Of a stretch of 64,000 nucleotides of DNA, positions 44,122-64,000 are shown piece after piece; positions within the stretch are counted from its first letter, which is position 1, and the number at the start of each line of letters is the position of its first letter. The DNA comes from Plantactinospora soyae (GTDB lineage: Bacteria; Actinomycetota; Actinomycetes; Mycobacteriales; Micromonosporaceae). A model generated the notes under the pieces. It did no database searches and had not been told where the DNA came from. It saw only the letters and a list, made by a program, of their open reading frames with translations. The stretch lies in assembly GCF_014874095.1 (NCBI RefSeq), contig NZ_JADBEB010000001.1:8494001-8558000 (forward strand), in the 5' to 3' direction. Made by a program: the position numbers and the translations under genes.

Positions 44122-44369
44122 GGCGTCTCCCGGGAGGGCGGTGGCGAGATCGAACATTGACGGATATCGCGAAAGATATTGTCACCTGCCACTATGCACT
44201 TGGCAAGAATCTTCGCCGCTGGCCGTGCCGCACCACCGTGACAGGTCGCGATGGTTCTGCGTACGGTCCGAAGTTGGCTCGCCGCGCGGCCGAGCTGGCT
44301 GCTGGATCCTCCAGCCCGAGTCGACGCCGTCCGCCGCCGAGTTGCGCCGGATCACCGGGCTGGGCTGAA
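44122..44369. other. Spacer with possible gene remnant
   Basis: Plus-strand codons just before 44368 read STPSAAELRRITGLG and a stop, directly followed by the palindromic element, like the end of a lost gene. No start is seen, and the frame continues antisense through the glycosidase gene, so this is weak. Confidence 0.25.
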
Positions 44370-44510: not shown

Positions 44511-47500
44511 GTGACGAAGGTTTACGTCTCGGCGACGTTCACGGACCTGCAGGAGTGCCGTGCTGCGGTCCAACTCGCGCTGCGGCGACTGCGGGTCGAG
44601 GACGTGGCCATGGAGTCGTACGTGGCCGAGGAACGGCGACCCCTGGAACGCTGTCTGGCCGACGCCGCCGAGTGCGACATCTACATCGGAATCTTCGCCT
44701 GGCGCTACGGCTTCGTTCCCGACGGGTACGACCGGTCGATCATCGAACTGGAATACCGGGAGGCGCTGACCGCCGGCAAGCCCTGCCTGATCTTCCTGCT
44801 CGACGAGGAGGCGCCCTGGCCGCGCAACTTCATCGACCGGGGCCCGGCGGCGGAGAGAATCGAGGCGCTCCGGGCCGAGTTGGCCGACCGGCACACGTGC
44901 AGCACGTTCCAAAGTCCGGCGGACCTCGCCGCGATGGTCACCGCGGCGGTGGCGAACTCCGTGACCGAGTCGGGCCTGCCGGTCGGCGGCATGCAGGCGT
45001 TGAGCCGGAACGCCCTGGAGCAGTACTTTCTCCGGTTGCGTCAGCACTACGGGGTGCTGGACCTGGACGCGCTCACCCCGGAGCAGACCGAGGACTACGT
45101 GCGGATCCAGTTGATGTCGGTCTTCGTCGAGCAGTGGGTACGCGAGGATCCACCCCCGGCCGAACTGCCCCGGGAATGGCTGCGCCGGATCCAGTCCCAG
45201 GGACACATCGGCACCGAGGACGTACCCGAGGAGGTGGACCCGCAGGAGCTGGTGCACCTGCACGAGTCGTACCGGGCGAAGCCGTTGCAGCGGCTGTTCG
45301 ACGTACTCGGGGCACCGGACCAGCGGGCGATCGTACTGCTCGGCGACCCCGGCTCCGGAAAGTCAACCGCCGCCCGCTACGTCGCCCTGAGCCTCACCCG
45401 CGGCCCGACCGACGACCGGCTGGCCATGCTCAGCGGGCATCTACCGCTGCTGATCGAGCTGTCCGCGTACGTCGCCGCGTTCACCGAGCGCCGCTGCGTG
45501 AACGTCGTCGACTATCTGGACCACCGGGCGGCAACCGACGGCCTCGGCATCGAGCGCTCCGCGCTGCACCGGCACCTGAGCACCGGCGGGCTGGCGGTCG
45601 TCATCTTCGACGGCCTCGACGAGGTCTTCGACCGGCGACAACGGGAGGAGGTGTCCCGGCAGATCGCCGACTTCGCGGTCGGCCATCCGCAGGTACGGAT
45701 CGTCGTCACCTCCCGGACGACCGATTACGGCCGCCGGATTCTGGGCGATGTCGGGTTCACCCATTTCACGCTCCAGGACCTGGACGAGGACCAGACGTCG
45801 GAGTTTTTGTCGAGCTGGTACCGGCTGGCGATCCCGGATCAGGCGGAGGTCGCTCACTCGGCGCGGACCCGCCTGCTGGACGCCCTGCGCCGCTCGGACG
45901 CGCTCCAGGAACTGGCCGGCAATCCGCTGCTGCTCACCGTCCTGGCCATCGTCGGCAGACGACACGCCCTGCCCCGCGAGCGCTGGAAGCTGTACGACCA
46001 CGCGGCGACGGTGCTGGTGCAGCATTGGGACGTCTTCCGGCACCTTGGCGGGCAGTCCCCCCTCGCCGATTTCATCGACAGCGAGGACAAGAAGGAACTG
46101 CTGCGCCGGCTGGCGTACCGGATGCAGGCTGACGAGCGCGGTCTGACCGCGAACTACGTCAGCGCGCAGACGTTGAGCACGGTCTTCGAGCAGTACCTCG
46201 TCGAGCGTTACGACCGCGACCCGGTCGACGCCCGGCGGATCGCCCTTCAGTTGACGAGCGAGTTTCGGGAACGGACCTTCACCCTCAGCCGGTACGGCCC
46301 CCGGATCTACGGCTTCGTCCACCGTGCGTTCCTGGAGTTCTTCTCCGCCGAGGCCATCCTGAACAGATTCAAGTCCGACCTCTCGTTCACCTTCGAGCAC
46401 GTCAAGGATCTGCTCCGCCTGCACTGGGCCGTCCCCTCCTGGCGGAGCATTTTCCGGCTGCTCGCCGGCCACATGCATGAGAGGCACACCGCCCAGATCA
46501 TCCACCTGCTGACCGCCGACGTCGGCCAATCCTGGCCAGCCGCCGAGATCAGCCCGCCGCCGTGGAAACTGGCCCTCGCCGTACAGTGCCTGGCCGAGGT
46601 CCGGAGGCTGGACAGCGCCGTCGCGGCACCCGCCGAAGCACTGCTCCGGCGACTCGTCCTCCTTCTCGAACACTGCGTCTCGATCGACGACCGCGACACC
46701 GTCCGGCTGATCGAGGAGGAAATTCTGCCCGCCGCCAGGACCATCGGATCGAAATGGCCCGGCCGCGAGCTCTACCTTTCCTGGTACCGCCGACGCGGTG
46801 TCCGGGTCGTCTGGAGTCCCGTTTCCACCCATGCCGCCCGACTCGCCGCTGTGCTCTCCACCCCGACCGAACGCATCGACGACCTCTTCGACAAGATCCT
46901 CGTCAGGATGGACGAGAGTCCGGCCGCGCACGCCTGCGTCGCCGGACTGGCCGAGATCGCCCAACTCGCCGTCGCCACCGTGGACAGTCCCGCCCACTCG
47001 GCCGCCGCCGCCCGGGTCCGTACCCGCCTGATCGAGCGCGCCCGCGACGACAACCATGCCGTCGTCAGGATGGCCGCCGTCGAAGCCCTCGGCGAATCCT
47101 TCCGGGCCGACCCCCGGGCCCAGGATCTCCTCATCGAACGTGCCCGCACGGACGGGTACGTCGGAGTCCGGCTCGTCGCCATCCAGGCCCTTGGCGGGGG
47201 CTTCTGGGACGACCCCGACGTGGGTGGCCTCATCGAGGGCGCCCACGCCGACGAAAACCCGAGCGTACGTCGCGCGGCCGTACAGATCCTGGGTGAACGC
47301 GCCAGCGGCGACTCCGACGTACGGGCCGCCCTCGTCGGCTCCCTGCACACCGACACCGATGCCGAGGTCATCCGCAGCACCGTCCAGGTCCTCGTCGAAC
47401 GCTTCGAGGCCACCCGAGAAGTCCGGGAGGTGCTCATCGCGCGCGCCCACGACGACGCCATCGCCATCATCCGACGCACCTGTCTCCGTGTCCTCGGCGA

Positions 47501-50499: not shown

Positions 50500-52176
50500 T
50501 CAACGCCCGCCGGCCCGCCACTCGAAGCGGATGTCGCCGACCGTGGCGGAACCTCCGGCGGGGCAGACCTTGACCTCCCGCGCGTCGGTCGAGCCGTCCC
50601 GGCTGTACGCGATCTCCAGGTCGGTACGGCCGGAGCGTGCCGTGGGGCGACGCCCCCGGGCGGTACCCGAACCCGGTATGCCGAGTGTCGCCGCGCTGAT
50701 CGTCATCCGCCGGCCGTGCAGGGTCACCGAGCCGCCGTTCACCGAACCCGATCCCCGGGAGCCGCCCGTCGCAGTAGCGGTCAGGACGCCGCTGAGCACC
50801 GGATGCAGTCGGTGCCAGCGCAGCAGCGCGGCGAGGGCCACCAGGAGCAGCAGCAGCCCGGCGCCGAGCTGCCACCAGCCGGGGCGACCCTGCTGCGCCC
50901 GCAGTGAAGCGGCGCCGTCGGGTCCGGCCAGAGTCGAGGTCAGCTTCGCCGAGGCGCCCAGCTCGTCGGCGAGGAAGGCCGCCCAGGGCGTACCGACCCG
51001 ACCGGTGAGGGTGAGCGCGCACTGCTGGCGTACCACCTCCGACGGTTTCCAGCTCCGGTCACCGGGGTTCCAGTCGACGGTCAGCCGGACCGGTGCACTG
51101 CCGCCGGGCGGCAGCTCCACCGGGTCGCCGTCCAGGGTGGACGTCACCGTCGCCCCGCAGGTCGTACCGACTGCCAGGTCGGTGACGGTCAGCGGCAGGT
51201 GGTCGTTCTGGGACCGGAGCGTCGCGGTCAGTTCGTTGCTGCCGGCGTCCAGTCGGCCGAGCTGCCCGGGCCACTGGACCGAGACGTTCCGGGCAAGATC
51301 TCCGGCCAGCAGTTCCTGCGCCTTGGCCGCCCGGACCCGCTGCTTCGGCTCGGCCAGCCGGGCGCCGATCTGGTCCGGGTTCGTGGTCGGCAGGACCGAG
51401 GCCCGCGTTCCGAAGACCTTCTTCAGCAGGTGCGCGCTGGTCCCACCGGCCAGCGGGATCGCGTACGCGCTCAGCGCGTCCTTCTCCAGCCCGCCCGCCG
51501 CTTTCGTCAACTGGTTCCAGGCGTACCCGGACTCCACCGGGTACCGACTACCCGGCTTCGGGTCGTGCCGGCCGTCGGTGAGCAGGATGACCGTACCGAT
51601 CGACGGTGCCTCGGGCCGGCGCAGTACGCGTACGGCGCTCTCCAGTGCGAGCCCGATGTCCGTGTACGCCCCGTTGGCGACCGGCGGCAGCTTGGCCACG
51701 ATCGCGTCCGGTGACTCGCCGGCCGGCTGCCGCCACACCTGCACCGCCCGCTCGGCGAACGTCACCACGGTGACCTCGTCCTTCGGCGCCAGCGCCGCGA
51801 AGAGGTTGCGTAGCCCGGTCTTCAGGGCGGCGTACAGGTTCCCGGTGCGCAGTGATCCGGAGACGTCGACCAGTACGACGTAGTCGGCGGCCACCTCCTG
51901 GACGCCGAGCTGTTCGTAGATCCGCTCGGTCGCGGCGGGGTCGGCCCGGCCCGGCACCGGAGCACCGAGGGCCGCCGGCACCGGAGCACCGAAAACTCCA
52001 GGCACTGGAGCACTCAGGACCGCCGGCACTGGAGCACCGAGGGCGGCCGGGACGGGCACGCCGAGCAGTCCGGTCCCGAGCCCGAGGGTCAGGGCCAGCC
52101 CGGCGGCCGTCCGACGGATCCACCGGTGGCTCGGCCGCACATCGCGGTGACGCGACTTCCCGCCCTTCGCAGTCAT
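50500..52176 (-). CDS. Secreted/membrane vWA domain protein
   Basis: 558 residues. Signal or anchor segment near 22-40 (AAGLALTLGLGTGLLG), then an 8-residue repeat APVPAALG five times, then a von Willebrand A domain with the metal-binding DVSGS at 104-108 and a later TDGRHD. A membrane segment (LGAGLLLLLVALAALL, near 460) separates this from a cytoplasmic C-terminal beta domain. The vWA part would bind a partner outside the cell. ATG 52176 has GGGGGAG upstream. Divergent from the chaperone operon and probably part of the same system, as similar vWA genes accompany Hsp70/GTPase sets; this is inference. Confidence 0.78.
   Translation of the reverse strand: MTAKGGKSRHRDVRPSHRWIRRTAAGLALTLGLGTGLLGVPVPAALGAPVPAVLSAPVPGVFGAPVPAALGAPVPGRADPAATERIYEQLGVQEVAADYVVLVDVSGSLRTGNLYAALKTGLRNLFAALAPKDEVTVVTFAERAVQVWRQPAGESPDAIVAKLPPVANGAYTDIGLALESAVRVLRRPEAPSIGTVILLTDGRHDPKPGSRYPVESGYAWNQLTKAAGGLEKDALSAYAIPLAGGTSAHLLKKVFGTRASVLPTTNPDQIGARLAEPKQRVRAAKAQELLAGDLARNVSVQWPGQLGRLDAGSNELTATLRSQNDHLPLTVTDLAVGTTCGATVTSTLDGDPVELPPGGSAPVRLTVDWNPGDRSWKPSEVVRQQCALTLTGRVGTPWAAFLADELGASAKLTSTLAGPDGAASLRAQQGRPGWWQLGAGLLLLLVALAALLRWHRLHPVLSGVLTATATGGSRGSGSVNGGSVTLHGRRMTISAATLGIPGSGTARGRRPTARSGRTDLEIAYSRDGSTDAREVKVCPAGGSATVGDIRFEWRAGGR
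51946..52068 (-). repeat. 24-bp repeats in the vWA gene
   Basis: Five copies encoding variants of APVPAALG in the linker after the signal segment. Confidence 0.75.
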
Positions 52177-52773
52177 GCTCTCCCCCACCTGGTCAACGAA
52201 AGTGGCGCCGGTTCGCCCGGCTCCATTGCCGATCGCATTTGTCGTACCGGAAGCGTGCTGTCGATTTCCGTGCGGAAATGGCCGACCGTTCCCGGGTGCC
52301 GCGCCAAGAACACGCGGGAGGGTGGCACGAGGTGTCGGGAAGCCGACCGGGATATGCGTACACCGGGTCCGGTTCGGCACCGGAAACAATCGTGCCACTC
52401 CCTTGTGACACGCAGACCCGACGCGTTCAATTGACGGGGGACGGGCCCGTTCTGGCAATCACCCGGTCGTCCACCCGGGATGGCCTGATCGGCTCGCGGG
52501 GCGCCGGGAGGGCGACCAGCGTCGCTGATCAGTTGACCTGCTCCGGGTATTTTCGTCGTTCCGGAGAATGCGTACGGAGTCGACGACGACCCGATCCGAA
52601 TGGCGTACATGGTGACGTCTTCGACCGATACCACGATCCGTTTGGTCAATAGCCCGGGGTAGATCAGCTAAGAGGGTCAAACGGGTCTGGACCGCTTTCG
52701 GTGCCGCCCTCTACGGTTCGGGGCGTCACTGGGGTGTCCACAGCAGAGACGCCATGTCGGTGGAGGTGCGCAC
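52177..52773. other. 597-base divergent promoter region
   Basis: I see no convincing gene. A weak promoter for the chaperone operon can be proposed: TGGACC (52688-52693), 18 bases, TACGGT (52712-52717). Confidence 0.4.
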
Positions 52774-53802
52774 GTGCCGGAAGAGATTGTTCCCGGGTCG
52801 ACCGACTCCGAATCGGGGCGGACCATCGACCTGGAAATTGTGCGGGATACGACGGGAAACACGGACTTTCCTTCGCCACGCAACGGTACCCAGGTCACGG
52901 TCTCCGGAACGCGGACGTCCGTTTCCGGCGACCGGGAGGCGCCCGGTCCCGACGAACAGGCGACGGGCGCCGACCCGACCGCGCCGGGCCACGGCCCGGA
53001 GGTTCCGGCGGCCGGGACCGGACCGGCGGAAGGCGTTCCGCTGACCTTCGCCGAGCGGCTCGACCGGCTCGACGCGACGGTCGCGACGCTGCACCGCGGG
53101 CTGGCCAGCGGCAACGAGCGGGCGGCCGCCCGGGAGCGGGTCATCGACCGGCAGTACGAGGACATCGAACGGCTCCGTGCCGGTGAACGCCAGTCCCTGC
53201 TCCGGCCCATGCTGGTCGAGTTGCGCCGGCTCCGGGACGACCTGCTCCGGCAGGCCGCCGGACTTCCGGAGAACCTGCCGTCCACCCAGGCGGCCAGCCT
53301 GCTGGAGTCGTTCGCGTACAGCACGGAGCTGATCCTCGGCCGGGCCGGAGTGGAGGTGCTCCGCCCGAATCCAGGCACCCCGTTCGACCCGACCCGGCAA
53401 CGCGCGGCCGGGATGCTGCCCGCGCCCTCGCCGGAACTGGACGGCACCGTCGCCGAGGTCGTCAGCGACGGATATTTCGACCTGGCCACGGATCGGGTCC
53501 TGGCCACCGCGACGGTACGCGTGCAGCGGTGGCAGGAGCCGGCGCCGGTGATCGCGCCGGACGACCCCGACGAGGCGGCACGGCCGGAGGCCGGGCTGCC
53601 GGAGGCCGGGCTGCCGGAGGCCGGGCTGCCGGAGGCCGGGCTGCCGGAGGCCGGGCTGCCGGAGGCCGGGCTGCCGGAGGCCGGGCTGCCGGAGGCCGGG
53701 CTGCCGGAGGCCGGGCTGCCGGAGGCCGGGCTGTCGGAGGCCGGGCTGTCGGAGGCCGGGCTGTCGGAGGCCACGGCGCGCCCGGTCGGCGCCGACATCT
53801 GA
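52774..53802 (+). CDS. GrpE-like nucleotide exchange factor with PEAGL repeat tail
   Basis: 342 residues. An acidic, disordered N-terminus (about 90 residues), a helical coiled-coil region (about 90-180), then a GrpE head with GVEVLRPNPGTPFDPTRQRA and DGTVAEVVSDGYF. GrpE releases ADP from Hsp70; the Hsp70 gene starts 39 bases downstream. The C-terminal 70 residues are a run of PEAGL pentapeptides, absent in housekeeping GrpE. GTG 52774 has GGAGG 7 bases upstream. Confidence 0.8.
   Translation: MPEEIVPGSTDSESGRTIDLEIVRDTTGNTDFPSPRNGTQVTVSGTRTSVSGDREAPGPDEQATGADPTAPGHGPEVPAAGTGPAEGVPLTFAERLDRLDATVATLHRGLASGNERAAARERVIDRQYEDIERLRAGERQSLLRPMLVELRRLRDDLLRQAAGLPENLPSTQAASLLESFAYSTELILGRAGVEVLRPNPGTPFDPTRQRAAGMLPAPSPELDGTVAEVVSDGYFDLATDRVLATATVRVQRWQEPAPVIAPDDPDEAARPEAGLPEAGLPEAGLPEAGLPEAGLPEAGLPEAGLPEAGLPEAGLPEAGLSEAGLSEAGLSEATARPVGADI
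53584..53763 (+). repeat. 15-bp tandem repeat, 12 units, in the GrpE-like gene
   Basis: Ten exact copies of CCGGAGGCCGGGCTG followed by two with TCG in place of CCG, then a partial unit. The near-zero divergence suggests recent slippage expansion. All changes would stay in frame. Confidence 0.95.
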
Positions 53803-53841
53803 AGTTCCGACGCCCGAAGTCCGACGCCCGAAGGAGGAGAG

Positions 53842-55524
53842 ATGTCCCAGGAACCAGTCACATATTTCGGTATCGACCTCGGCACCACGTACTCGGTGGT
53901 CTCCTACGTCGACCAGTCCGGCCATCCGACGGTGGTCCGGAACGTCATCACCAACAGCGAGACGACGCCGTCGGCGGTGTACTTCGAGAACGCCGGCAAC
54001 GTGGTGGTCGGTGCCTCGGCCAAGAACGTGTCCCGGCTCTACCCGGACCGGGTGGTGCAGCGGGTGAAGCGGCGGATGGGCCGGGAGGCGCACTGGGAGT
54101 TCGACGGGAACACCTACACCCCGGAGTCGATCTCGGCACTGATCCTCAAGCAGCTTGCCGAGGACGCCGCCGAGGCCACCGGGCACGAGGTACGTCAGGT
54201 CGTCATCACCGTACCGGCGTACTTCGGGATGCTGGAGCGGGACGCGACCCGCAACGCCGGTCGGATCGCCGGGCTCGACGTGATCGGCATCGTGCCCGAG
54301 CCGGTCGCCGCCGCGCTCCAGTACGAGATGCGGGACAGCGCCGCGGGCGCCGAGCGGATCGTCCTGGTGTACGACCTCGGCGGCGGCACCTTCGACACCA
54401 CCGTCATCCGGATCACCCCGGGCGCGATCGACGTGCTCTGCACCGACGGCGAGCAGGAACTCGGCGGCGTCGACTGGGACAACCGGCTGATCAAGTACCT
54501 GGTCGACGAGTTCGTCAGCCAGGCCGAGCCGGCCCAGGACCCCTACTCCGACGAGGAGTTCATGCAGTCCGTCGCGTCCAGCGCGGAGGAGCTCAAGCAC
54601 CAGCTCTCCCAGGTGGAGTCCCGCAAGGTGCCGCTGCGGTTCGCCGGTGCCGCCGCGATGATCGAGGTGACCCGGACGACGTTCGAGCAGATCACCCGCG
54701 ATCTGCTGGACACCACGCTGGTGGTCACCGACCGGGTACTGGCGAAGCTGGCCGACAAGCTCGGCGCCGCCGACCCGGCCGGGCGGATCGACGACGTACT
54801 GCTGGTCGGCGGCTCCACCAAGATGCCGGCGGTCAAGGGCCGGCTGACCGAGAAGTACGGCTGGAAGCCCCGGTTGCACGATCCGGACCTGGCGGTGGCC
54901 AAGGGCGCGGCCCGGTTCGCGCTCAGCCGGGCGCTGTGGGACTGGAAGGACGCCGAGTCTGCCGCACCGACCCCGCAGGAGCAGGAGTTCCGGGTCCAGG
55001 AGCTGGCGCTGCGTACCGGGGTGGATCCGGACGAGCTGGCCGAACTGGCGAGCAAGCGGATCACCACCGTGCTGCCCAAGGCGTTCGGCGTACGGCTGGT
55101 CGACACCGACCTGCCGAACTGGGAGGCCGACCCGATGGCCGCCTCGTACGTCGAGCACCTGGTGCACGCCGACGACTCGCTGCCCAGCGACCTCAAGGTG
55201 CTGCACGCCGGCACGGTCGTACCGAACCAGACCGACATCGAGATCGCGGTCTACGAGCAGGCCGGCGCCACCGAGAGCCGGGACCTGGCCGCGAACAAGG
55301 CGGTGGACCAGGGCAAGGGCGTCATCAGCGGGCTGCCGCCGCTGCCGGTCGGCTCGCCGATCAACATCACCCTCCGGGTGGACGACGAGGGCTTGCTGAC
55401 GGTGCGGGCGGTGGAACCGGGCACCGGCAAGGAACTCACCATCGAGGTCCGGGTCAGCATGCTCACCGAGGCCGAGGTGGTCGAGGCCCAGCAGATGGTC
55501 TCGGCGATCGCGGTACGGGCCTGA
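53842..55524 (+). CDS. Hsp70 family chaperone
   Basis: 560 residues. Nucleotide-binding domain with phosphate loop FGIDLGTTYSVVS, VPAYFGMLERDATRNAG, EPVAAALQY, YDLGGGTFDTT and LLVGGSTKMP. A substrate-binding domain follows (about 400-545; PNQTDIEIAVYEQ, GSPINITLRVDDEGLLTVRA) but the C-terminal lid of DnaK is short or missing. The gene is not near dnaJ or hspR, so it is a specialised Hsp70, not the housekeeping dnaK. It sits between the GrpE-like gene and the FN3-like gene (3-base gap to the latter). ATG 53842 has AAGGAGG upstream. Confidence 0.9.
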   Translation: MSQEPVTYFGIDLGTTYSVVSYVDQSGHPTVVRNVITNSETTPSAVYFENAGNVVVGASAKNVSRLYPDRVVQRVKRRMGREAHWEFDGNTYTPESISALILKQLAEDAAEATGHEVRQVVITVPAYFGMLERDATRNAGRIAGLDVIGIVPEPVAAALQYEMRDSAAGAERIVLVYDLGGGTFDTTVIRITPGAIDVLCTDGEQELGGVDWDNRLIKYLVDEFVSQAEPAQDPYSDEEFMQSVASSAEELKHQLSQVESRKVPLRFAGAAAMIEVTRTTFEQITRDLLDTTLVVTDRVLAKLADKLGAADPAGRIDDVLLVGGSTKMPAVKGRLTEKYGWKPRLHDPDLAVAKGAARFALSRALWDWKDAESAAPTPQEQEFRVQELALRTGVDPDELAELASKRITTVLPKAFGVRLVDTDLPNWEADPMAASYVEHLVHADDSLPSDLKVLHAGTVVPNQTDIEIAVYEQAGATESRDLAANKAVDQGKGVISGLPPLPVGSPINITLRVDDEGLLTVRAVEPGTGKELTIEVRVSMLTEAEVVEAQQMVSAIAVRA

Positions 55525-55527
55525 GCG

Positions 55528-58215
55528 ATGACCTTCGACCCCGTCCGGTACGAGCAGGAGGTGATCCGGCCGCTGCGCCGGCACACCCGGCTGCCCGCCG
55601 GTGACCTGCTAAGGCGGTACGCCATCGAGCCGGGCCTGGACGACACACGGCTAAAGGAGCACCTGCGCCGGATCCGGGCGTACTGGAACCAGAAGGCCGG
55701 CAGCCCGGACAACCGGGCCAAGGTGTGCCGGCTGCTGCTGCTCGCCGACGAGGAACTGCAACGCAACCACGGTGCGGCGATGTACCAGCCCGCCTGGTGG
55801 CAGCAGCAGGCGCAGCAGTGGCAGCAGAGCAGCCGGGCCAAGGTGACCGCGCTGGCCGCCGACCTGGCCAGGGCGCACCAGCCGCTGGGTCAGGTGACCC
55901 GGGCCCAGTTGGCCGCCCTGGCCGCGAGCTTTCCGGAGCTGTCCCAGGCGCAGATCGACGACGCGGTACGCCAGGCCAAGCTGCGGGTCGTCGACACCGT
56001 CGAGCTGCCGAAGACCAGCGGATTGGACCGGACCGCCTACGGGCGGCTCAAGACCGGCTGCGCGGAGGTGGACGCGCCGACCGTGGTCCAGTTGCTGCAT
56101 CCGACCCTGAACCGGCCGTTCACCCTGCTGCGCGAGTTCGGGGTGCCGGGCGGCCCGGCGCTGCGACTGGACCGCCCGGTGCTCGACGCGTGCCTGCGGG
56201 CCGTCGACTCGGCCGCCGACTCGTCCACGGTACGGGCCCGGAAGGCGGCGCTGCACGTGCTGCGTACCGGCCTGGAGGGCGGCGCGGACCTGCGCGTCAT
56301 CGCGCTGTACCAGGTCGTCGAGCAGTTGGCGGCGGCCCGGTCCCAGGGGCTGGCCGAACTGCTGCTGATCCATCAGGCCACCGCGCTGGGCCTGGCCCAG
56401 CCGGAGGCGGAGCTGCTGGTCGCCAGCCTGGGCAGCGCGGGAGGCCAGGCCGCCAGTGGCGCCGACCGGATCCGCGAACTGCTGGCGGACGGCGAGTTGC
56501 GGGCCGCCCAGCAGGCGCTGGCCGCGCTGCCGGGCAGGGATCCGGAACACACCGCGGTGGCGGCCCTGGTCGCGACCCAGCAGGCGACCGTGGAGCGGCT
56601 GGTCCGGGAGGCCGGCGCGGCCCTGGCGGCACACCGCGAGCAGGACGCCGAACGGCAGTTGCGGGAGGCGCTGCGGATCGCCTCCGACGACGAGGACCTG
56701 GCGGCCCGGCTGCGCCGGCTGCCGCCACCGCCGCCGCGTGACCTCTCCGTCGTGCCGGTCGACACCGACGTGCGGCTGGACTGGAAGGCGCCGGACTCGG
56801 CAATGGCCGAACTGCGCTACCGGGTGGTCCGGACCGAGGGCCGGGTGGCGGCGGCACCGGCCGACGGTGTGCAGGTCGCCGCGCCGACCTCGACGTCGGC
56901 GGTGGACCGCCAACCGCCGGTGGCCCGGCCGATCGCGTACGCGGTCTTCGCCAGTGCCGACGGTACGGTCTGGTCCCGCCCGGCCAGCGGCACACTCTCG
57001 ATCGTCCCGCCGTTGACCGAGGTGACCCTGCGGGTGCGCCGGGACCAGATCGTCGGCGCCTGGAAGCGGCATCCGGCGACGGTGGCCGTCCGGGTACGCC
57101 GGGTCGAGGGCTCCCCGCCGCATGGCGCGGGTGACGGCGATCCGGTCGACGCGGAGCTGGACTCGTTCGTCGACCGGGGCATCGGCGAGGGCCGGGAGTA
57201 CTTCTACAGCGTCGTCGCGGTGTACCACGACGTACGCCGACGTGAGGTGACCGCGCCGATGGTGGTGGTCTCGGCGTCACCCCGGGCTCCGGCCACCCCG
57301 GTGGAGACGCTGCGGGTCAGTCCGCTGGCCGCCGCCGACGACGGCAACCGGGTACGGGTGTCCTGGACCACCTCGGCCGGCACCGAGGTACGCGTCCGGT
57401 ACGCCGCGCAGCGCCCGCCGTGGGAGGTCGGCGCGGTCGTACCGGTGACCCATCTCGACCGGTACGGCCGTCCGCTGGTCGGCGCGCGGCACGTCGAGGG
57501 GCCGGACACCGTGCTGGAGGCCGACGTGGCGGCCGGACAACAGGTGTACGTCCCGTTCGCCATCGGTGGCACCGGCGCCGTGGTCGGTCGGCCGGTGGTG
57601 GTCGGAGTCGCCGAGCCGGTACGCCAGCTCGTCGCCCGGCGTACCGGTCCGGAGGTACGGCTGTCCTGGGTGTGGCCCGACGAGGTGGGCATGGCGGAGG
57701 TCACCTGGACCACCCCGGAGCACGGCACCCGGCGGCACCGGGTCACCCGGGCACAGCTCGTCGACGGCGAGGGCTGTCTGCTGCCGGTCGGACCGGGTGG
57801 CGGCAGCGCCGAAGTCAGCGCGATCGCGGTCGGCTCGCTCGGCGAGGCCAGCTCGGTCCCGGTCTCGGTGACCGTGGAGGGAACCGCGCTCTCGCTGTCG
57901 TACGAACTGTGCCGGCTGCCCGGGATCCGGCGGCTGTCCCGGCAGCGGCAGCTGCGGGCCACCGTGAACGCCGACTGCCGGAACGTCGATCTGGTGGTGG
58001 TGGCCGCCGCTGGACTGATCATGCCGCTGCGTCCCGAGCAGGGCACCGTGGTGAACCGGTACGACGGGCTCACCTTCACCCGGGACGTGCCGCTGACCTT
58101 CGACATCGAGATCCCGTCGGGGTTGGGCCGGCCGTACTGGCTGCGCTGCTTCGTCAACGGCCCCGGCAACCTGACCGTGACCGACCCGCCGATCGACAAC
58201 CTGAAGGTGTCCTGA
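55528..58215 (+). CDS. Large FN3-like adaptor protein of the Hsp70 system
   Basis: 895 residues, no signal peptide. The N-terminal 390 residues are helical, with a run of Gln (WWQQQAQQWQQ) and a tetratricopeptide-like part (about 310-390). A polyproline stretch PPPPP near 397 leads into several beta-sandwich domains resembling fibronectin type III (RDLSVVPVDTDVRLDWKAP; later VRLSWVWPDEVG). It has no J-domain HPD motif. I infer a scaffold or client-recognition adaptor for Hsp70. The stop shares a base with the ATG of the next gene (TGATG), so they are coupled. Confidence 0.7.
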   Translation: MTFDPVRYEQEVIRPLRRHTRLPAGDLLRRYAIEPGLDDTRLKEHLRRIRAYWNQKAGSPDNRAKVCRLLLLADEELQRNHGAAMYQPAWWQQQAQQWQQSSRAKVTALAADLARAHQPLGQVTRAQLAALAASFPELSQAQIDDAVRQAKLRVVDTVELPKTSGLDRTAYGRLKTGCAEVDAPTVVQLLHPTLNRPFTLLREFGVPGGPALRLDRPVLDACLRAVDSAADSSTVRARKAALHVLRTGLEGGADLRVIALYQVVEQLAAARSQGLAELLLIHQATALGLAQPEAELLVASLGSAGGQAASGADRIRELLADGELRAAQQALAALPGRDPEHTAVAALVATQQATVERLVREAGAALAAHREQDAERQLREALRIASDDEDLAARLRRLPPPPPRDLSVVPVDTDVRLDWKAPDSAMAELRYRVVRTEGRVAAAPADGVQVAAPTSTSAVDRQPPVARPIAYAVFASADGTVWSRPASGTLSIVPPLTEVTLRVRRDQIVGAWKRHPATVAVRVRRVEGSPPHGAGDGDPVDAELDSFVDRGIGEGREYFYSVVAVYHDVRRREVTAPMVVVSASPRAPATPVETLRVSPLAAADDGNRVRVSWTTSAGTEVRVRYAAQRPPWEVGAVVPVTHLDRYGRPLVGARHVEGPDTVLEADVAAGQQVYVPFAIGGTGAVVGRPVVVGVAEPVRQLVARRTGPEVRLSWVWPDEVGMAEVTWTTPEHGTRRHRVTRAQLVDGEGCLLPVGPGGGSAEVSAIAVGSLGEASSVPVSVTVEGTALSLSYELCRLPGIRRLSRQRQLRATVNADCRNVDLVVVAAAGLIMPLRPEQGTVVNRYDGLTFTRDVPLTFDIEIPSGLGRPYWLRCFVNGPGNLTVTDPPIDNLKVS

Positions 58216-59393
58216 TGACTCCTCTGCTGGGGCAGACGGCCTGCCCCTACTGCTATCACCAGATCCCGGGGCGGAAGCTGGCGTACCAGTGCACCGGGCG
58301 GGGCTCACCGGGCCGGGACGGCTGCCCGAAGACCGTCGACGAGAAACGCCGACGGGAGACGGGCTTCAACCAGCCGTCCCGGCCGGTGTTCACGGCCGAC
58401 AAGGCGGGTCTGTACGCGCCGCCCCGGGCCAAGTGTCCGACCTGTCGGGCGGAGAGCGGGATCCGGGCCTGTCCCTGCTGCCACACGCCGCTGTCGGCGA
58501 ACTTCGGCGCCTCGGCCGGCCCGTTGATCGCGATGGTCGGCGCGACCGGCACCGGCAAGACGGTCTACCTGACCGTACTGGCGCACGAGCTGATGAACGG
58601 GCTGCGCCGACGGTTCGACGCCGACGTACGGCGGGTCGGCGGCTCGTCGTCGGAGGTGGAGCAGGTGTTCGGCGAGCAGACCCTGTTCGGGCAGACCGCA
58701 CAGGCCAAGGGCGGTTGGCGGGAGCCGGTCGTCTTCGAGTGGCGGCAGCAGCGCCGGGGGCTCGGGATCGGTCCCCGGTTCCGCACCACCTACCTGTCCT
58801 TCTACGACACCGCGGGTGAGGACCTCACCGAGCAGGACACCACGCACGACCTGACCTACCTCGGTGCGGCGGAGGCGCTGATCCTGCTGCTCGATCCCTT
58901 CATGATCCGCAAGGCCCGGGACCAGATCCGACTGCCGAAGTCGGCACTGCGGTCCCAGGAGTCGACGCTGAACGTGGTCAACCGGGTGACCGAGACCCTG
59001 CGGGCCAGTCACGGGCTCAAGCCCCGGCAGAACGTGAAGATCCCGGTGGCGGTGGCGTTCGCGAAGATCGACGCCTTCTTCGACGTACTCGGTCGGGACC
59101 ACGCGCTGCTGCGGAAGCCCCCGGTCACCGCCGGCTACGACGAACTCGCCGGCCAGGCGACGCACGAGCAGATCCGAGCCCTGCTCCGGGAGTGGGACGC
59201 CGACGACATCGACGCCCACCTGCGGCACAACTACGAGAACTTCCGCTACTTCGCCGTCTCCGCGCTCGGCGCCCAACCGGACTACGACGACGCGGTCGTC
59301 GATCCGCGCGGCGTACAGCCGTTCCGGGTGGACGAGCCGCTGGTCTGGCTGCTCAGCCGGTTCGGCGTGGTACCCCGGCTGGTGAACAGGTGA
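58215..59393 (+). CDS. Zinc-ribbon GTPase, double-GTPase family
   Basis: 392 residues. N-terminal zinc ribbons (CPYCYH, CPTCRAESGIRACPCC) precede a GTPase with P-loop GATGTGKT at 109-116, a G3-like DTAGED and a G4-like AKID. I place it in the double-GTPase (DO-GTPase) families described from bacterial conflict systems; this is from memory. ATG 58215 overlaps the preceding stop, and its own stop overlaps the GTG of the next gene as GTGA. Confidence 0.8.
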   Translation: MTPLLGQTACPYCYHQIPGRKLAYQCTGRGSPGRDGCPKTVDEKRRRETGFNQPSRPVFTADKAGLYAPPRAKCPTCRAESGIRACPCCHTPLSANFGASAGPLIAMVGATGTGKTVYLTVLAHELMNGLRRRFDADVRRVGGSSSEVEQVFGEQTLFGQTAQAKGGWREPVVFEWRQQRRGLGIGPRFRTTYLSFYDTAGEDLTEQDTTHDLTYLGAAEALILLLDPFMIRKARDQIRLPKSALRSQESTLNVVNRVTETLRASHGLKPRQNVKIPVAVAFAKIDAFFDVLGRDHALLRKPPVTAGYDELAGQATHEQIRALLREWDADDIDAHLRHNYENFRYFAVSALGAQPDYDDAVVDPRGVQPFRVDEPLVWLLSRFGVVPRLVNR

Positions 59394-61789
59394 CCGCGCC
59401 GGAGGGGCAACCCGGCTTCGACACCCTGATCTACACCGACTGCCGGGCCGGACAGGGCCTGCGCGGCGCGGTCGGACTCCAGTTCCAGGCCCGTTCGGCC
59501 GGTGCCGACGAGGCGGCGATGGCGGTGGTGCAACGCAACCTGCTGTACGAGCCGCCGGCGAGGTGGATGCGGGAACGCCGGTCGGTCTCGGACTATCCGC
59601 CCTCGTTCGCGCACGTCTGGGACGGGCACCTGGCCACCGCCGCCGGGGTCTACCTCGGCAAGGAGGTCAACGGCAGCCGCGAGGGCAACCAGCTCACCCA
59701 CAGCGTGGTCACCCGCGACCCCGCCGCGTACGGCCCGGTCCGGCCGGCGCAGCTGTTCGGCGCGACGTTCTGGACCGACCGACCGGCACCGACCACCCAG
59801 TCCCCGCCGGTGCCGCCCGGCTGGCAACCCGGACCGATCGGGATCGAGGACGCCCAGAAGTTCGTTCTCGACCAGCCCGACGGGCGGCAGACCCTGATCG
59901 CCCTGGTCTCCGCGCTGGAGGAGGTGACCGAGCCGGGCGCCCGGCGGGTGCTCTTCGTCGCCGACGCGCCGGCCCCGGTGCTGCACTGGATCACCGCGGC
60001 GACGCTGCTGCTGCCCCGGAACCGGGCGCTGGCCATCGGGTTCAAGGTCTTCACCACCAATCCCGCGTACGCCACCCAACCGGTGGTGGCGGTGCATCCC
60101 GACTGGGGCACCACCGACGCCCGGGTCGACAACGATCTCGGGTACGCCGTCTTCGACCTGGTGCACGGCGGCTGCTCCGAGGTGCCGTCGACCCGGCACG
60201 CCGAGACCTGGGTGCCGCTGTTCTGCGCCGAGGACCCGTACGACATCGTCGACGCGATCGAGGTCGCCGCCGCCTCCGGGCTCGGCCGGCACGCGCCGGT
60301 GCTCGGCCTGGCCGCGACGCTGCGCCGCCGGCAGACCCCGGAACAGGCGGCGATCCTGCTGCGCTGGCTCCGGGACAGCGACCGCGACCTGCTGGCCGGC
60401 TGGCGGGGACCGGTCGTCGACCTGCTCGCCGAGTCGGTCGACGAGCTTCCGTCGCCGGTGCTGCTCGCCTTCGACGAGGTGGCCCGCTCCGGGCAGGTGC
60501 CCGCCGACCGGGTGGCACCGGTACGACTGGCGCTGATCACGGCCGAGATCCAGCGGGCGTACCGGGACGCCGAGGTGGCCGGCGTGGTCCTGCCGGCCCT
60601 GCCCGCCGGTACCTGGCTGCCGGAGCACCAGGCCGCCGCCGAACGGGCGGTACTGGCGGCGCTGCGCGGCGCACCGCCGGCCGCGTTCGACGCGGTGCTC
60701 CGGGTCGCGTCCCGGTTCGAACTGGCGGTCCGGATCGCCGACATCAGGGACGAGGCCGGCCGGTTCGTCGACGACTGGGCCCAGCACCGCCGGGCGTACG
60801 AGCCGGCCGGCTGGCCGTGCGGCGAGGAACTCGACGCGATGCTCGTCGACGGGCTCTGCGAGCAGATCGCCCGGGATCCGGCCCGGGGCGCCGGCATCGG
60901 CGACGGCTGGTGGCGGCAGCGCTGGCGGGGGTGCGTCAACGGGGCCACGCCGTTCGACCAGGCGGTGCTCGGCGCGGCGATGGTGCACCTCGATCCGGAC
61001 CGTCGGCTCGACCTGGTCCGGCTGGTGTTCCGGGACCTGCCGGCCGCCGACGATCCGAGGCGACTGGCCGGCGAGCTGGCCGAGATCCTCTGGGCCCGGC
61101 GGCCGGCCACGCACGAGGAACTGCAACTCCTGCTGGACACCGTGCCCCGGGACACCGTGCTGCCGCACGTCGTCTGCCAGGCGCTCTGCGCCGAACTCCT
61201 GGACGGGAAGCTGACCGAGCAGGTGGTGGTGCTCGGCCACCGGCTGCGCAGCAAGGGCATTCTGCGCAGCCGGAACCGTCGGGTGGCCGACCTGCTGGAG
61301 GCCGACTACGACCTGTACGACCTCATCGAGCAAATCGCCCGGCTGAGCTCCGCGAACTCGGCGAAGTCACTGGAGAGCCGACTCGGTGCCATTCCCGGCC
61401 CGATACTGCTGCTCCGGGTCGACAAGGTGGTCGACGCGCTGTTGGCGGCCGACGCACCGCACGTCGTCCGCCGTCTGCTCAGCGCCCGGCCGGAGCTCGC
61501 CGAGCCGTACGTCCGGCGACTCTGCGCCGACCTGCGCCGGGGCGGCCGGAGCCCGGCCCGGGTCCGTACCGCGTTCTATCTCGGCACCTCCCCGCACGTG
61601 GCCGGCGCCGACCAGACCGAGTGCAAGCAGGCGGTCCGGCACTGGCTCGGGCGGGCCGGCACCAGACGGATCAAGCCGGTCACCGAACTCGTGGCGCAAC
61701 TCAGCCCCGACCATCTGAGCATCTGGCAGGCGTGGGTGGCGGAGACCCGGCGCGGTTTCCCGGCCCGATTCCTGCCCCGGCGGAGGTGA
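59390..61789 (+). CDS. GTPase-associated protein 1 (GAP1-like)
   Basis: 799 residues, cytoplasmic. N-terminal domain (about 1-270; FDTLIYTDCRAGQGLRG, FAHVWDGHLATAAGVYLGKE) resembles GAP1-N2; a middle and C-terminal helical part (about 300-799) resembles GAP1-M and the C-terminal domain. These proteins are found next to double-GTPase genes and are thought to link GTPases to other components. No catalytic motif is evident. GTG 59390 overlaps the GTPase stop. Confidence 0.75.
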   Translation: MTAPEGQPGFDTLIYTDCRAGQGLRGAVGLQFQARSAGADEAAMAVVQRNLLYEPPARWMRERRSVSDYPPSFAHVWDGHLATAAGVYLGKEVNGSREGNQLTHSVVTRDPAAYGPVRPAQLFGATFWTDRPAPTTQSPPVPPGWQPGPIGIEDAQKFVLDQPDGRQTLIALVSALEEVTEPGARRVLFVADAPAPVLHWITAATLLLPRNRALAIGFKVFTTNPAYATQPVVAVHPDWGTTDARVDNDLGYAVFDLVHGGCSEVPSTRHAETWVPLFCAEDPYDIVDAIEVAAASGLGRHAPVLGLAATLRRRQTPEQAAILLRWLRDSDRDLLAGWRGPVVDLLAESVDELPSPVLLAFDEVARSGQVPADRVAPVRLALITAEIQRAYRDAEVAGVVLPALPAGTWLPEHQAAAERAVLAALRGAPPAAFDAVLRVASRFELAVRIADIRDEAGRFVDDWAQHRRAYEPAGWPCGEELDAMLVDGLCEQIARDPARGAGIGDGWWRQRWRGCVNGATPFDQAVLGAAMVHLDPDRRLDLVRLVFRDLPAADDPRRLAGELAEILWARRPATHEELQLLLDTVPRDTVLPHVVCQALCAELLDGKLTEQVVVLGHRLRSKGILRSRNRRVADLLEADYDLYDLIEQIARLSSANSAKSLESRLGAIPGPILLLRVDKVVDALLAADAPHVVRRLLSARPELAEPYVRRLCADLRRGGRSPARVRTAFYLGTSPHVAGADQTECKQAVRHWLGRAGTRRIKPVTELVAQLSPDHLSIWQAWVAETRRGFPARFLPRRR

Positions 61790-61792
61790 ACC

Positions 61793-63535
61793 ATGCCCAC
61801 TCTGGTCATGTTCCTGGCGCTCGCCGCCGCAATCATCGGGTACGGCTGGCTGTGCTACCTCGTCCTGGCCCTGGTCCTTCCGGCCGTGGCCCCGGTGGCG
61901 TTCGTCGCCGGGGTGGTCGGCGGACTCGGGCTGGCAATGGTGGCCGCGACCCGGGTGCTCAGCGGCCACTATCCGCCGACCCGGGTGCTCGGGCCGACCG
62001 ACGTGGCGGCGGGCCGGCTGGCCGGCAGGGTCGGCGCGGCACAGGTCCGGCGCGACCGGGCCTGGCCGCAGTACTTCACCGCGCAGGTCCGGCTGGACCT
62101 GATCGCGGTGCACCGGCTCGGCTACGGCGTGCTCGGCCGCGCCTGGACGGGTGCCGTCCGGCCGTTCGGGCCGACCCGCCGCCCCCGACTGCTGCTGTTC
62201 TGGCCACTGCTGCTGATCGGCGTCGCCGGGTTCGCCGGGTTCGGCGCCGGGACGGTGCTGGGCACCGCACTGGTGGCACTGCTGTCCGGGATCTTGACGA
62301 TCTCCGCCTGGCTGGTCGGCTTTCCGCTGGTCCTGTTGCTGCGCGGGGCCGACCGGTGCTGGCAGTGGATCTTCCGGGCCGGGGGCAGCTGTCCACGCTG
62401 CTACGAGGTGACCTCGCTGCCCGCGTACCGGTGTCCCGGTCCACACTCGACCGAGGATCGGCGGTGCGGCGACGATCTGCACCGGAACGTCCGCCCCGGC
62501 CGGCTCGGCGTGCTGTGGCGGCGGTGCGCCTGCGGTACCCGACTGCCGACAACCGTGCTCCGGGCCTCCCGCACACTCGCGGCACACTGTCCCACCTGCA
62601 CCGCCGCGCTGCATCCGGGTGCCGCGGTCGCCACCGACGTACGGGTGCCGGTCTTCGGTGCCTCCTCGGCCGGCAAGACCCAGCTCATCATGGCGGCGCT
62701 GGTGGCACTGGTCGGGGCACCGTCGACCGGGGCGGACCGACCGGCGGGCGGCTCCGACGATCCAGTGGACGGCATCGGGGCCGGCGAGGCGTCGGGCGGG
62801 GCCGGAACCATGCTGGCCGACGAGTACAGCCGGCGCCGGTACGACGAGTACCTGCAACTGGTGACCGAGGACCGGGCGGCGCCGAAGACCGACGTGGCGC
62901 AGCAGCCGGTGGCGGTGACCGTACGCATCCCGACCGGCCGGCACCGCTCCGCGCTGCTGCACCTGTTCGACGCGGCCGGCGAGGCCCTGGTCGACCAGCA
63001 GCTCAACGCGGGGTACGCGTACCTCGACTACGCCCGGACGCTGCTCTTCGTGCTCGACCCGTTCTCCGTACGCGATGTCCGGGACCAGTCCGCGCGGGCG
63101 TTCGCGGACGTCTTCGCGGAGGCCAACCCGGCGCAGCACGATCCGGAGGACTCGTACCAGTCGACCGTCACCCGACTGCGCCAGTACGGCGTCGACACCG
63201 CCCGCCAGCGGCTGGCGTTCGTGGTCAGCAAGCGGGACCTGATCGAGCGGCTGCCGATCGGCGAACGGCTCGGCATCGATCCGGACAGCATCCGCGGCTG
63301 GTTGCTGGATCGCGGGCTGGACAACCTCGTCGCCTCGGCCGCCCGGGACTTCGCCGAGGTGCGGTTCTTCCTGGTGTCGTCGAAGGACCTGTCCGAGTCC
63401 GGCGCGGTGGCACCGGTGCGTTGGCTGCTGGAGACCGAGCGGGTCGCGGTACGGCCGCAGGGCACGGGCATCGGCCGGGCCGCGCCGGCTCCCCGGGGCG
63501 TACCGAACGAACGCGACCAGCACCAGACCGCCTGA
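61793..63535 (+). CDS. Membrane-anchored zinc-ribbon GTPase, second of the pair
   Basis: 580 residues. N-terminal membrane segments (residues about 3-50 and 140-190; LLLFWPLLLIGVAGFAGFG, TISAWLVGFPLVLLLRGA), zinc ribbons (CPRCYE, CACGT, CPTCTA), then a GTPase with P-loop GASSAGKT at 289-296, G3-like FDAAGEA and G4-like SKRD. It would hold the GTPase complex at the membrane. ATG 61793 is 3 bases after the preceding stop. Confidence 0.82.
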   Translation: MPTLVMFLALAAAIIGYGWLCYLVLALVLPAVAPVAFVAGVVGGLGLAMVAATRVLSGHYPPTRVLGPTDVAAGRLAGRVGAAQVRRDRAWPQYFTAQVRLDLIAVHRLGYGVLGRAWTGAVRPFGPTRRPRLLLFWPLLLIGVAGFAGFGAGTVLGTALVALLSGILTISAWLVGFPLVLLLRGADRCWQWIFRAGGSCPRCYEVTSLPAYRCPGPHSTEDRRCGDDLHRNVRPGRLGVLWRRCACGTRLPTTVLRASRTLAAHCPTCTAALHPGAAVATDVRVPVFGASSAGKTQLIMAALVALVGAPSTGADRPAGGSDDPVDGIGAGEASGGAGTMLADEYSRRRYDEYLQLVTEDRAAPKTDVAQQPVAVTVRIPTGRHRSALLHLFDAAGEALVDQQLNAGYAYLDYARTLLFVLDPFSVRDVRDQSARAFADVFAEANPAQHDPEDSYQSTVTRLRQYGVDTARQRLAFVVSKRDLIERLPIGERLGIDPDSIRGWLLDRGLDNLVASAARDFAEVRFFLVSSKDLSESGAVAPVRWLLETERVAVRPQGTGIGRAAPAPRGVPNERDQHQTA

Positions 63536-63573
63536 TCCAGTCTTCGACGGCCCGACCGGAAACGAGGAACGAC

Positions 63574-63738
63574 ATGTCCGGCACCGCACTGCCCGTGACG
63601 CACCGGATCGCCCGGGGCGTGACCCTCCTGCTCGTCCTGGTCTCCTTCGGCGTGCTCGCGGTGGGCAGCGGCGCGCTCGCCTGGCTGCTCGGCGAGGGCG
63701 CGGAGATCCTCGAACGGATCGGCTCGGGCCCGCAGTGA
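63574..63738 (+). CDS. 54-residue single-pass membrane peptide
   Basis: ATG 63574. One membrane segment (GVTLLLVLVSFGVLAVGSGA), short acidic tail. Placed between the membrane GTPase and the second Hsp70, co-directional, with small gaps. Function unknown; likely a membrane subunit of the system. Confidence 0.65.
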   Translation: MSGTALPVTHRIARGVTLLLVLVSFGVLAVGSGALAWLLGEGAEILERIGSGPQ

Positions 63739-63763
63739 CCGAAGCGGAAGGCGTGGAACGACG

Positions 63764-64000
63764 ATGAGAACGCTCGGCATCGACCTGGGCACCACCTTCT
63801 CGGTGGTGGCCACCCTGGACAGCGCCGGACGGCCGATGATCCTGCCGAACCCGCTGGGCGAGGAGGCCACCCCGTCGGTGGTCTGCTTCGAGTCGCCCGG
63901 CTCGGTGCTGGTCGGCTCCGCCGCGTACAACGCCGGACCGGCCTTTCCGGACCGTACCGTCGCGTTGATCAAACGTCAGATGGGCACGGACCGGCTGCTC
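63764..64000 (+). CDS. Second Hsp70 family protein, partial
   Basis: The first 79 codons of a gene cut by the right edge. The phosphate loop is intact (LGIDLGTTFSVVATLD), followed by ATPSVVCFE and ALIKRQMG. GGAACG lies 8 bases before ATG 63764, a weak ribosome site. It is a different Hsp70 from the one at 53842, which means the system has two. Confidence 0.9.
   Translation, partial: MRTLGIDLGTTFSVVATLDSAGRPMILPNPLGEEATPSVVCFESPGSVLVGSAAYNAGPAFPDRTVALIKRQMGTDRLL

Follow-up and report, generated by a model that had tools for sequence, protein, structure and literature searches.

A GAP1-N2 double-GTPase operon of Plantactinospora soyae with Hsp70/GrpE chaperones, a probable split membrane helix and a CHAT protease gene

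Organization of the locus

The stretch analysed here, called the window, comprises 64,000 nucleotides of Plantactinospora soyae (bases 8494001-8558000 of the 9.7 Mb chromosome, contig NZ_JADBEB010000001.1). From position 52774 its plus strand carries an operon-like run of genes encoding a GrpE-like protein, an Hsp70 (Hsp70a), an adaptor with fibronectin type III (FNIII) domains, a zinc-ribbon GTPase, the protein GAP1, a membrane GTPase, a microprotein and a second Hsp70 (Hsp70b). A preliminary description of the window had advised reading beyond position 64,000 for the remainder of the operon, and on the same chromosome the run was indeed found to continue uninterrupted, with a second vWA gene (vWA2) and a gene for a CHAT protein ending at 70124. 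The core fits a published kind of predicted system, the HSP70/GrpE theme of the GAP1-N2 systems, and comparison of related loci strongly suggests that CHAT proteases are recurrent partners of its Hsp70-type members. Positions past the window were read on L013, the chromosome stretch continuing beyond it (L013 position + 62000 = window count). The features are as follows.

50500-52176, minus strand: divergent vWA protein (Pfam VWA_2, 4e-11); start likely the ATG at 52176, from the sequence
52774-53802, plus strand: GrpE-like nucleotide exchange factor (Pfam GrpE, 6.2e-8)
53842-55524, plus strand: Hsp70a (Pfam HSP70, 5.9e-93; alignment to the DnaK of the same genome)
55528-58215, plus strand: FNIII adaptor (AlphaFold2 model and Foldseek)
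58215-59393, plus strand: zinc-ribbon DO-GTPase (alignment of 17 homologues; Pfam DO-GTPase2 below cut-off)
59390-61789, plus strand: GAP1, N2 type (Pfam GAP1-N2/M/C; AlphaFold2 model)
61793-63535, plus strand: membrane DO-GTPase (Pfam DO-GTPase2, 1.6e-11; hydropathy; alignment of 20)
63574-63738, plus strand: 54-aa membrane microprotein (conservation of the slot; fused helix in three loci)
63764-65479 (L013:1764-3479), crossing the window end at 64000, plus strand: Hsp70b (Pfam HSP70, 7e-75; own clade; alignment)
65506-66171 (L013:3506-4171), plus strand: vWA2 (VWA_2, 6e-13)
66168-70124 (L013:4168-8124), plus strand: CHAT protease, 1318 aa (Pfam CHAT, 1.6e-48)
70102-72111 (L013:8102-10111), minus strand: C14 caspase, convergent, possible accessory (3.5e-17)
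73856-77401 (L013:11856-15401): degenerate CHAT paralogue, possible accessory (CHAT, 3.5e-5, 23.8 bits, just under the cut-off of 24)

No gap within the operon exceeds 39 bases, and the largest overlap is of 4 bases: the zinc-ribbon GTPase gene overlaps the adaptor gene by 1 base, GAP1 overlaps the zinc-ribbon GTPase gene by 4, and the start of the CHAT gene overlaps the end of vWA2 by 4. Judged from Pfam matches and coordinates and, for the FNIII nature of the adaptor, from a structural model, all genes that the preliminary description had placed in one direction, together with a divergent vWA gene, are present with tight or overlapping junctions, and its picture of a membrane-associated double-GTPase system tied to Hsp70/GrpE was right.

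Conservation of the core genes

GAP1-N2 occurs in 33 of the 200 family genomes, counting the present one; the six further genomes of the same genus that were listed all lack it. For the comparison of gene order we used the other 32 family loci and the best 80 of 431 relatives retrieved from GTDB genomes with the zinc-ribbon GTPase as query, all 80 of which carry actinobacterial titles. Removal of 10 duplicates from the 113 loci left 103 including the present one, 65 with an Hsp70 gene just upstream (Hsp70-type) and 38 without. Loci were taken as complete if the zinc-ribbon GTPase gene was flanked by at least 8.5 kb downstream and at least 6 kb upstream, a filter passed by 61 of the 65 and 30 of the 38.

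The preliminary description had proposed that gene order be compared in related genomes, where dispersal of the homologues would have spoken against it; the genes are kept together. Because the six core genes are contiguous and in the same order in 54 of the 61 complete loci of the Hsp70 type, among them the present one, the order of the core is beyond chance. Individually, GrpE is present (at the equivalent place) in 58 of these 61 loci, GAP1 in 60 and the membrane GTPase in 59. Less constant members are the second Hsp70 (28), vWA2 (18) and the divergent vWA gene (10).

GTPases, GAP1 and the adaptor

The zinc-ribbon GTPase has two N-terminal Cys clusters, a P-loop (GATGTGKT) and the motif DTAGED, which is invariant among 17 aligned homologues; it has no membrane helix, and its match to Pfam DO-GTPase2 (1.8e-5, 24.9 bits) falls under the cut-off of 27. 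The membrane GTPase matches the same model over the cut-off. Hydropathy and an alignment of 20 sequences show four N-terminal hydrophobic segments (residues 10-28, 32-50, 133-151 and 159-177, by hydropathy), Cys clusters and the GTPase domain; a C-terminal transmembrane helix is lacking from the protein itself.

GAP1 matches GAP1-N2 (1.5e-30), GAP1-M (2e-16) and GAP1-C (4.8e-41), all over the Pfam cut-offs. Its AlphaFold2 model (pLDDT 94.8, pTM 0.76) consists of a beta-beta-alpha-beta-beta-beta N domain, an alpha/beta M domain and a C domain of helical repeats. The order of strands and helices in the N domain recalls longin domains and may fit a longin-like fold, which would make GAP1 a GTPase regulator. 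The comparison also drew on the description of DENN modules in PMC3521125. The 50 Foldseek matches listed for the whole model were mostly helical-repeat proteins with no DENN or longin protein among them, and the N+M part gave no DENN or longin match in a PDB profile search or in Pfam. We consider it quite unlikely that GAP1-N/M is a bacterial longin/DENN-like GTPase regulator.

The FNIII adaptor had no Pfam match at E 0.01. Its AlphaFold2 model (pLDDT 88.7, pTM 0.42) is helical up to residue ~397, with beta domains after it, and matches fibronectin FNIII 7-10 (Foldseek, 7.6e-13) and cytokine receptors. A J-domain in the N-terminal helices, hinted at by a conserved Y-W-N at the place expected for HPD, was considered and dropped after searches gave nothing.

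Membrane microprotein

The gene following the membrane GTPase encodes a single-pass protein of 54 residues with the motif P-x-x-[YH]-x-x-x-R ahead of its hydrophobic stretch, and the protein has no Pfam or PHROG family match. An open reading frame (ORF) of 38-100 residues with one strongly hydrophobic segment lies directly 3' of the membrane GTPase gene in 72 of 84 loci (55 of 60 Hsp70-type, 17 of 24 others), compared with 22 of 1365 control genes. When the helix also had to be preceded by P-x-x-[YHFW]-x-x-x-R, the counts were 45 of 84 loci and 2 of 1365 control genes; it must be noted that the motif was picked from the loci seen first, so that its count is not blind, which matters less for the count of the ORF.

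The microprotein is probably the fifth helix of the published membrane GTPase architecture, encoded separately, because three of the 12 GTPases not followed by such an ORF (L020, L021 and L040) carry the motif and the helix fused at their extreme C-terminus. The other nine have neither, and three fusions are few. Among the 72 loci with a separate microprotein gene, only the GTPase of L069 has a hydrophobic stretch near its end (residues 439-457 of 538), and this stretch is probably within the GTPase domain. The microprotein should, on this prediction, bind the membrane GTPase.

In a Parafrankia locus (L094) the gene in the microprotein slot (gene 10) encodes 213 residues, with motif and helix at the start and, as seen by eye, a longer domain behind them, as if the split helix could carry an outside domain.

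Chaperones

Both Hsp70s of the operon keep the ATPase motifs and the substrate-binding domain (SBD-beta), which aligns to that of DnaK; their sequences stop before the helical lid, and each has a longer, variable stretch where the DnaK linker would be. In a tree of 22 of the 65 Hsp70a proteins (hand-chosen) and 26 further Hsp70s, with the genome's own DnaK as sole outgroup, 20 Hsp70b proteins formed one clade (SH-aLRT 96) separate from Hsp70a, which places the two Hsp70s of this operon, as read from their sequences, in separate lineages. The gene directly after Hsp70b is vWA2 in 19 of 20 loci.

The GrpE protein ends in a tail built of roughly twelve GLPEA/GLSEA pentapeptides in tandem (Pfam GLTT). 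In L058, L060, L062, L065 and L069 convergent CHAT-Hsp70 pairs were seen beside the main operon, followed by two genes of ~205-225 aa; one of these genes (e.g. L058|14) has, by eye only, the look of a RES-type domain. In the tree the Hsp70s of such convergent pairs (Saccharopolyspora, Actinokineospora, Amycolatopsis) group together in a small cluster on the side of Hsp70a.

CHAT protease and nearby caspases

The CHAT protein of the operon has its catalytic His (LACHG) and Cys (AACSS) intact. To judge whether such genes accompany the system, the Pfam CHAT model was run over the 33 whole GAP1-N2 genomes, with the expectation calculated from how many CHAT genes each genome has. A CHAT gene lay within 15 kb of GAP1 in at least 12 of 21 Hsp70-type genomes (0.45 expected) and in at least one of the 12 genomes without Hsp70 in the system (0.22 expected), where the grouping was done by hand and the counts of nearby CHAT genes are lower bounds. 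A second, overlapping set gave a similar picture: CHAT was present in at least 23 of the 61 complete Hsp70-type loci and in at least one of the 30 others (Fisher p 0.0003), and CHAT or a C14 caspase in at least 27 of 61 and at least 2 of 30, most of the stretches ending at ~10 kb. The CHAT and C14 profiles used here were built from system members and hence favour them; the test with the Pfam model is free of this bias.

In a tree built from 26 CHATs of the systems and 20 hand-picked background ones, from which duplicates and rows of less than 140 bits or 180 residues had been omitted, 23 system and four background CHATs fell in one clade (support 100/99). When 21 CHAT rows were checked, 16, that of the present locus included, were found to keep both His and Cys, four degenerate paralogues keep neither, and one row (L091) has no letters at either site. 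In the degenerate paralogue on this chromosome the His is replaced by Arg and the Cys by Asp; L015, L016 and L018 likewise have a degenerate paralogue after CHAT. The C14 caspase past CHAT has its active-site motifs in place, and a homologue lies convergent after CHAT in L015, with pieces in L016 and L027.

Comparison with known systems

It is useful to compare the operon with the GAP1-N2 systems predicted by Kaur et al. 2020 (PMC7159879); our comparison is with the text sections of that paper. The preliminary description considered that the exact composition might be new, a suggestion that did not hold for the core, which corresponds to one of the three themes in that paper. In GAP1-N2 systems as described there, one GTPase bears two zinc ribbons and has a conserved Glu in Walker B, another has four membrane helices at its N-terminus and one at its C-terminus, and an FNIII protein accompanies them. 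HSP70 and GrpE occur in ~14% of neighbourhoods, a second HSP70, said to be without the peptide-binding domain, in a subset, and the FNIII protein of this theme is typically fused to DnaJ or TPR. The systems are predicted to act in conflict and are linked to multicellular bacteria, double-GTPase systems being widespread in multicellular actinobacteria; HSP70 and tubulins are proposed as multimer-forming effectors, and inactive versions of effectors are stressed as a theme of related systems (PMC7159879).

The present operon shares with the HSP70 theme the zinc-ribbon DO-GTPase, the membrane DO-GTPase with four N-terminal transmembrane helices, GAP1-N2/M/C, the FNIII protein, HSP70 with GrpE, the second HSP70 and the actinobacterial host. 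Unlike in that theme, as far as its text sections describe it, the second Hsp70 retains SBD-beta and lacks only the lid (loss of the peptide-binding domain being a trait of the published subset and no defining one), the C-terminal transmembrane helix of the GTPase is apparently a separate 54-aa gene, and the adaptor has no recognisable DnaJ domain. The vWA2-CHAT end and the degenerate CHAT are likewise unmentioned there: the word CHAT is absent from the main text, and caspases are given for GAP1-N1 and other systems and are not named in the GAP1-N2 section. What goes beyond the published text sections is thus the vWA2-CHAT end, the probable split helix and two lidless Hsp70 lineages with SBD-beta. 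The tubulin and kinase themes of GAP1-N2 (PMC7159879) have the same GTPase/GAP1/FNIII core and membrane-bound or standalone vWA proteins, but replace HSP70/GrpE by tubulins, or by a kinase with PP2C and vWA. Our search of the literature since 2020, with coverage that left out preprints and most subscription journals, found no experiment on double-GTPase systems; their names turned up only in the predicting paper and, in passing, in one other.

In five GAP1-N2 loci without Hsp70 (L029, L032, L033, L036 and L041) a member of one gene family lies beside GAP1, in L029 a trypsin-VMAP-C protein, and the first four share two further gene families. Tubulin-type actinobacterial systems and VMAP systems are reported to be mutually exclusive (PMC7159879); a GAP1-N2 system next to a VMAP protein is noted here beside that exclusion.

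More distant likenesses were also considered. CoCoNuT systems of types II and III, as described in the part of PMC11090510 consulted, combine Hsp70-like proteins, a GTPase (McrB) and a vWA protein (TerY) in one operon; however, their GTPase is of the McrB type and accompanied by nucleases, that part does not mention GAP1 or DO-GTPases, and their Hsp70 is predicted to be poor at ATP hydrolysis and to bind RNA. TPR-CHAT proteases such as Csx29 resemble our protein, in which the CHAT protease likewise comes after a long N-terminal region, and an NCBIfam model matched weakly over the CHAT domain (9.3e-8, 31 bits vs. a cut-off of 300), but Csx29 is a component of type III-E CRISPR, and nothing of that kind was found at this locus. 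PADLOC-DB gave only two weak single-protein matches, BovA to the CHAT part (3.9e-5) and PDC-M61B to Hsp70a (0.0018), which we take as general domain similarity. Of eight proteins searched against PHROGs, only the two Hsp70s had a match.

Possible function

It is possible, and tentatively our preferred view, that the operon encodes a membrane GTPase switch gated by chaperones, with release of the CHAT protease as its output. In the full chain, sensing or binding of a partner, either an invader or damage to the envelope, would fall to the FNIII adaptor together with the vWA proteins, and GAP1 would couple this input to the GTP state of the membrane GTPase pair. Cycles of Hsp70 and GrpE would keep either GAP1/GTPase or CHAT inactive or assembly-limited, setting a threshold; when this is crossed, CHAT would be released and would cleave host proteins, with growth arrest or cell death as the outcome. 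The inactive CHAT paralogue may be a decoy or damper.

A more far-reaching version, which we find doubtful, sees here a bacterial cell-death pathway akin to apoptosome control, with a threshold set by chaperones and GTP as the trigger, in which a caspase-like CHAT executioner is gated by a dedicated Hsp70-GrpE machine together with the two GTPases at the membrane; the split helix would report the state of the envelope to the GTPase, and GAP1-N/M might be longin/DENN-like. If the full chain set out first holds, Hsp70 would be dedicated to gating a caspase-like protease in bacteria. The link to a specific CHAT clade gives the HSP70 theme a concrete, testable output, and the 54-residue probable split helix offers a small handle on possible sensing or assembly by the membrane GTPase.

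Several observations weigh against the gated protease. The functions of all operon members are predictions; 'GAP1' is just a designation, and both the GTPase and the GAP activities are predicted. Many of the loci are closely related (e.g. several from Saccharopolyspora), which inflates all counts, and the counts are not independent. Three of the 26 system CHATs fall outside the clade, and the four background CHATs inside it come from system-bearing genomes. The association between the second Hsp70 and CHAT is weak (both in 15 loci, Hsp70 only in 13, CHAT only in 8, neither in 25; p 0.03). No J-domain was found in the adaptor by Pfam (50 members), by a PDB profile search or by hhalign against 25 DnaJ J-domains (0.4%). 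In the stretches read, 38 of the 61 complete Hsp70-type loci are without CHAT and 34 are without both CHAT and C14, thus CHAT is not obligatory. Finally, a tblastn search with the GAP1 protein of the window as sole query gave no match in 72,556 plasmid and 50,697 phage records, so a mobile defence system is not favoured.

The last two points also suit a different explanation, an envelope-stress or developmental module in which GTPases, Hsp70s and adaptor build or reshape a cortical structure, CHAT and caspase being later accretions at a spot rich in conflict genes. That several parts are membrane-bound agrees with it too. The patchy occurrence of GAP1-N2 within the family and its absence from the six listed genomes of the same genus are, however, unlike what is seen for a housekeeping gene, and the enrichment of CHAT is confined to Hsp70-type loci and involves largely one CHAT clade. 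We regard this module as somewhat unlikely and rank the GTPase switch with its CHAT output above it.

Alternatively, the operon may be an anti-phage system with the Hsp70s as effectors, to which the FNIII adaptor would pass phage proteins for capture, while the GTPases act as timer and CHAT as an optional kill switch. The proposal of HSP70 and tubulins as multimer-forming effectors (PMC7159879) points in this direction, and so does the retention of two distinct Hsp70 lineages with SBD-beta but no lid. Considering that only 28 of the 61 complete loci have the second Hsp70 and that a direct link to phages is absent, we think this unlikely. That only the Hsp70-GTPase-GAP1 core is functional, with vWA2 and CHAT as unrelated neighbours, is very improbable: CHAT genes are common (0 to 20 per genome among the matches listed), but their frequency near GAP1 (at least 12 of 21 vs. 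0.45 expected), the 4-base vWA2-CHAT overlap on this chromosome and the position of vWA2 after Hsp70b in 19 of 20 loci all speak against chance.

Neighbouring genes

The divergent vWA gene (50500-52176) is shorter than its ORF. Its product has a DVSGS motif, a signal-peptide-like N-terminus and, judged by eye, one hydrophobic stretch near the C-terminus, and is probably secreted and anchored. Convergent with it lies a plus-strand gene (44511-50432) for a protein of 1973 aa with DUF4062, a NACHT/STAND NTPase, HEAT repeats, a second STAND-like NTPase and a C-terminal TIR domain, likely a conflict effector. Further upstream, the minus strand (42568-44157) encodes a phosphodiester glycosidase (NAGPA) with a golvesin C-terminal domain.

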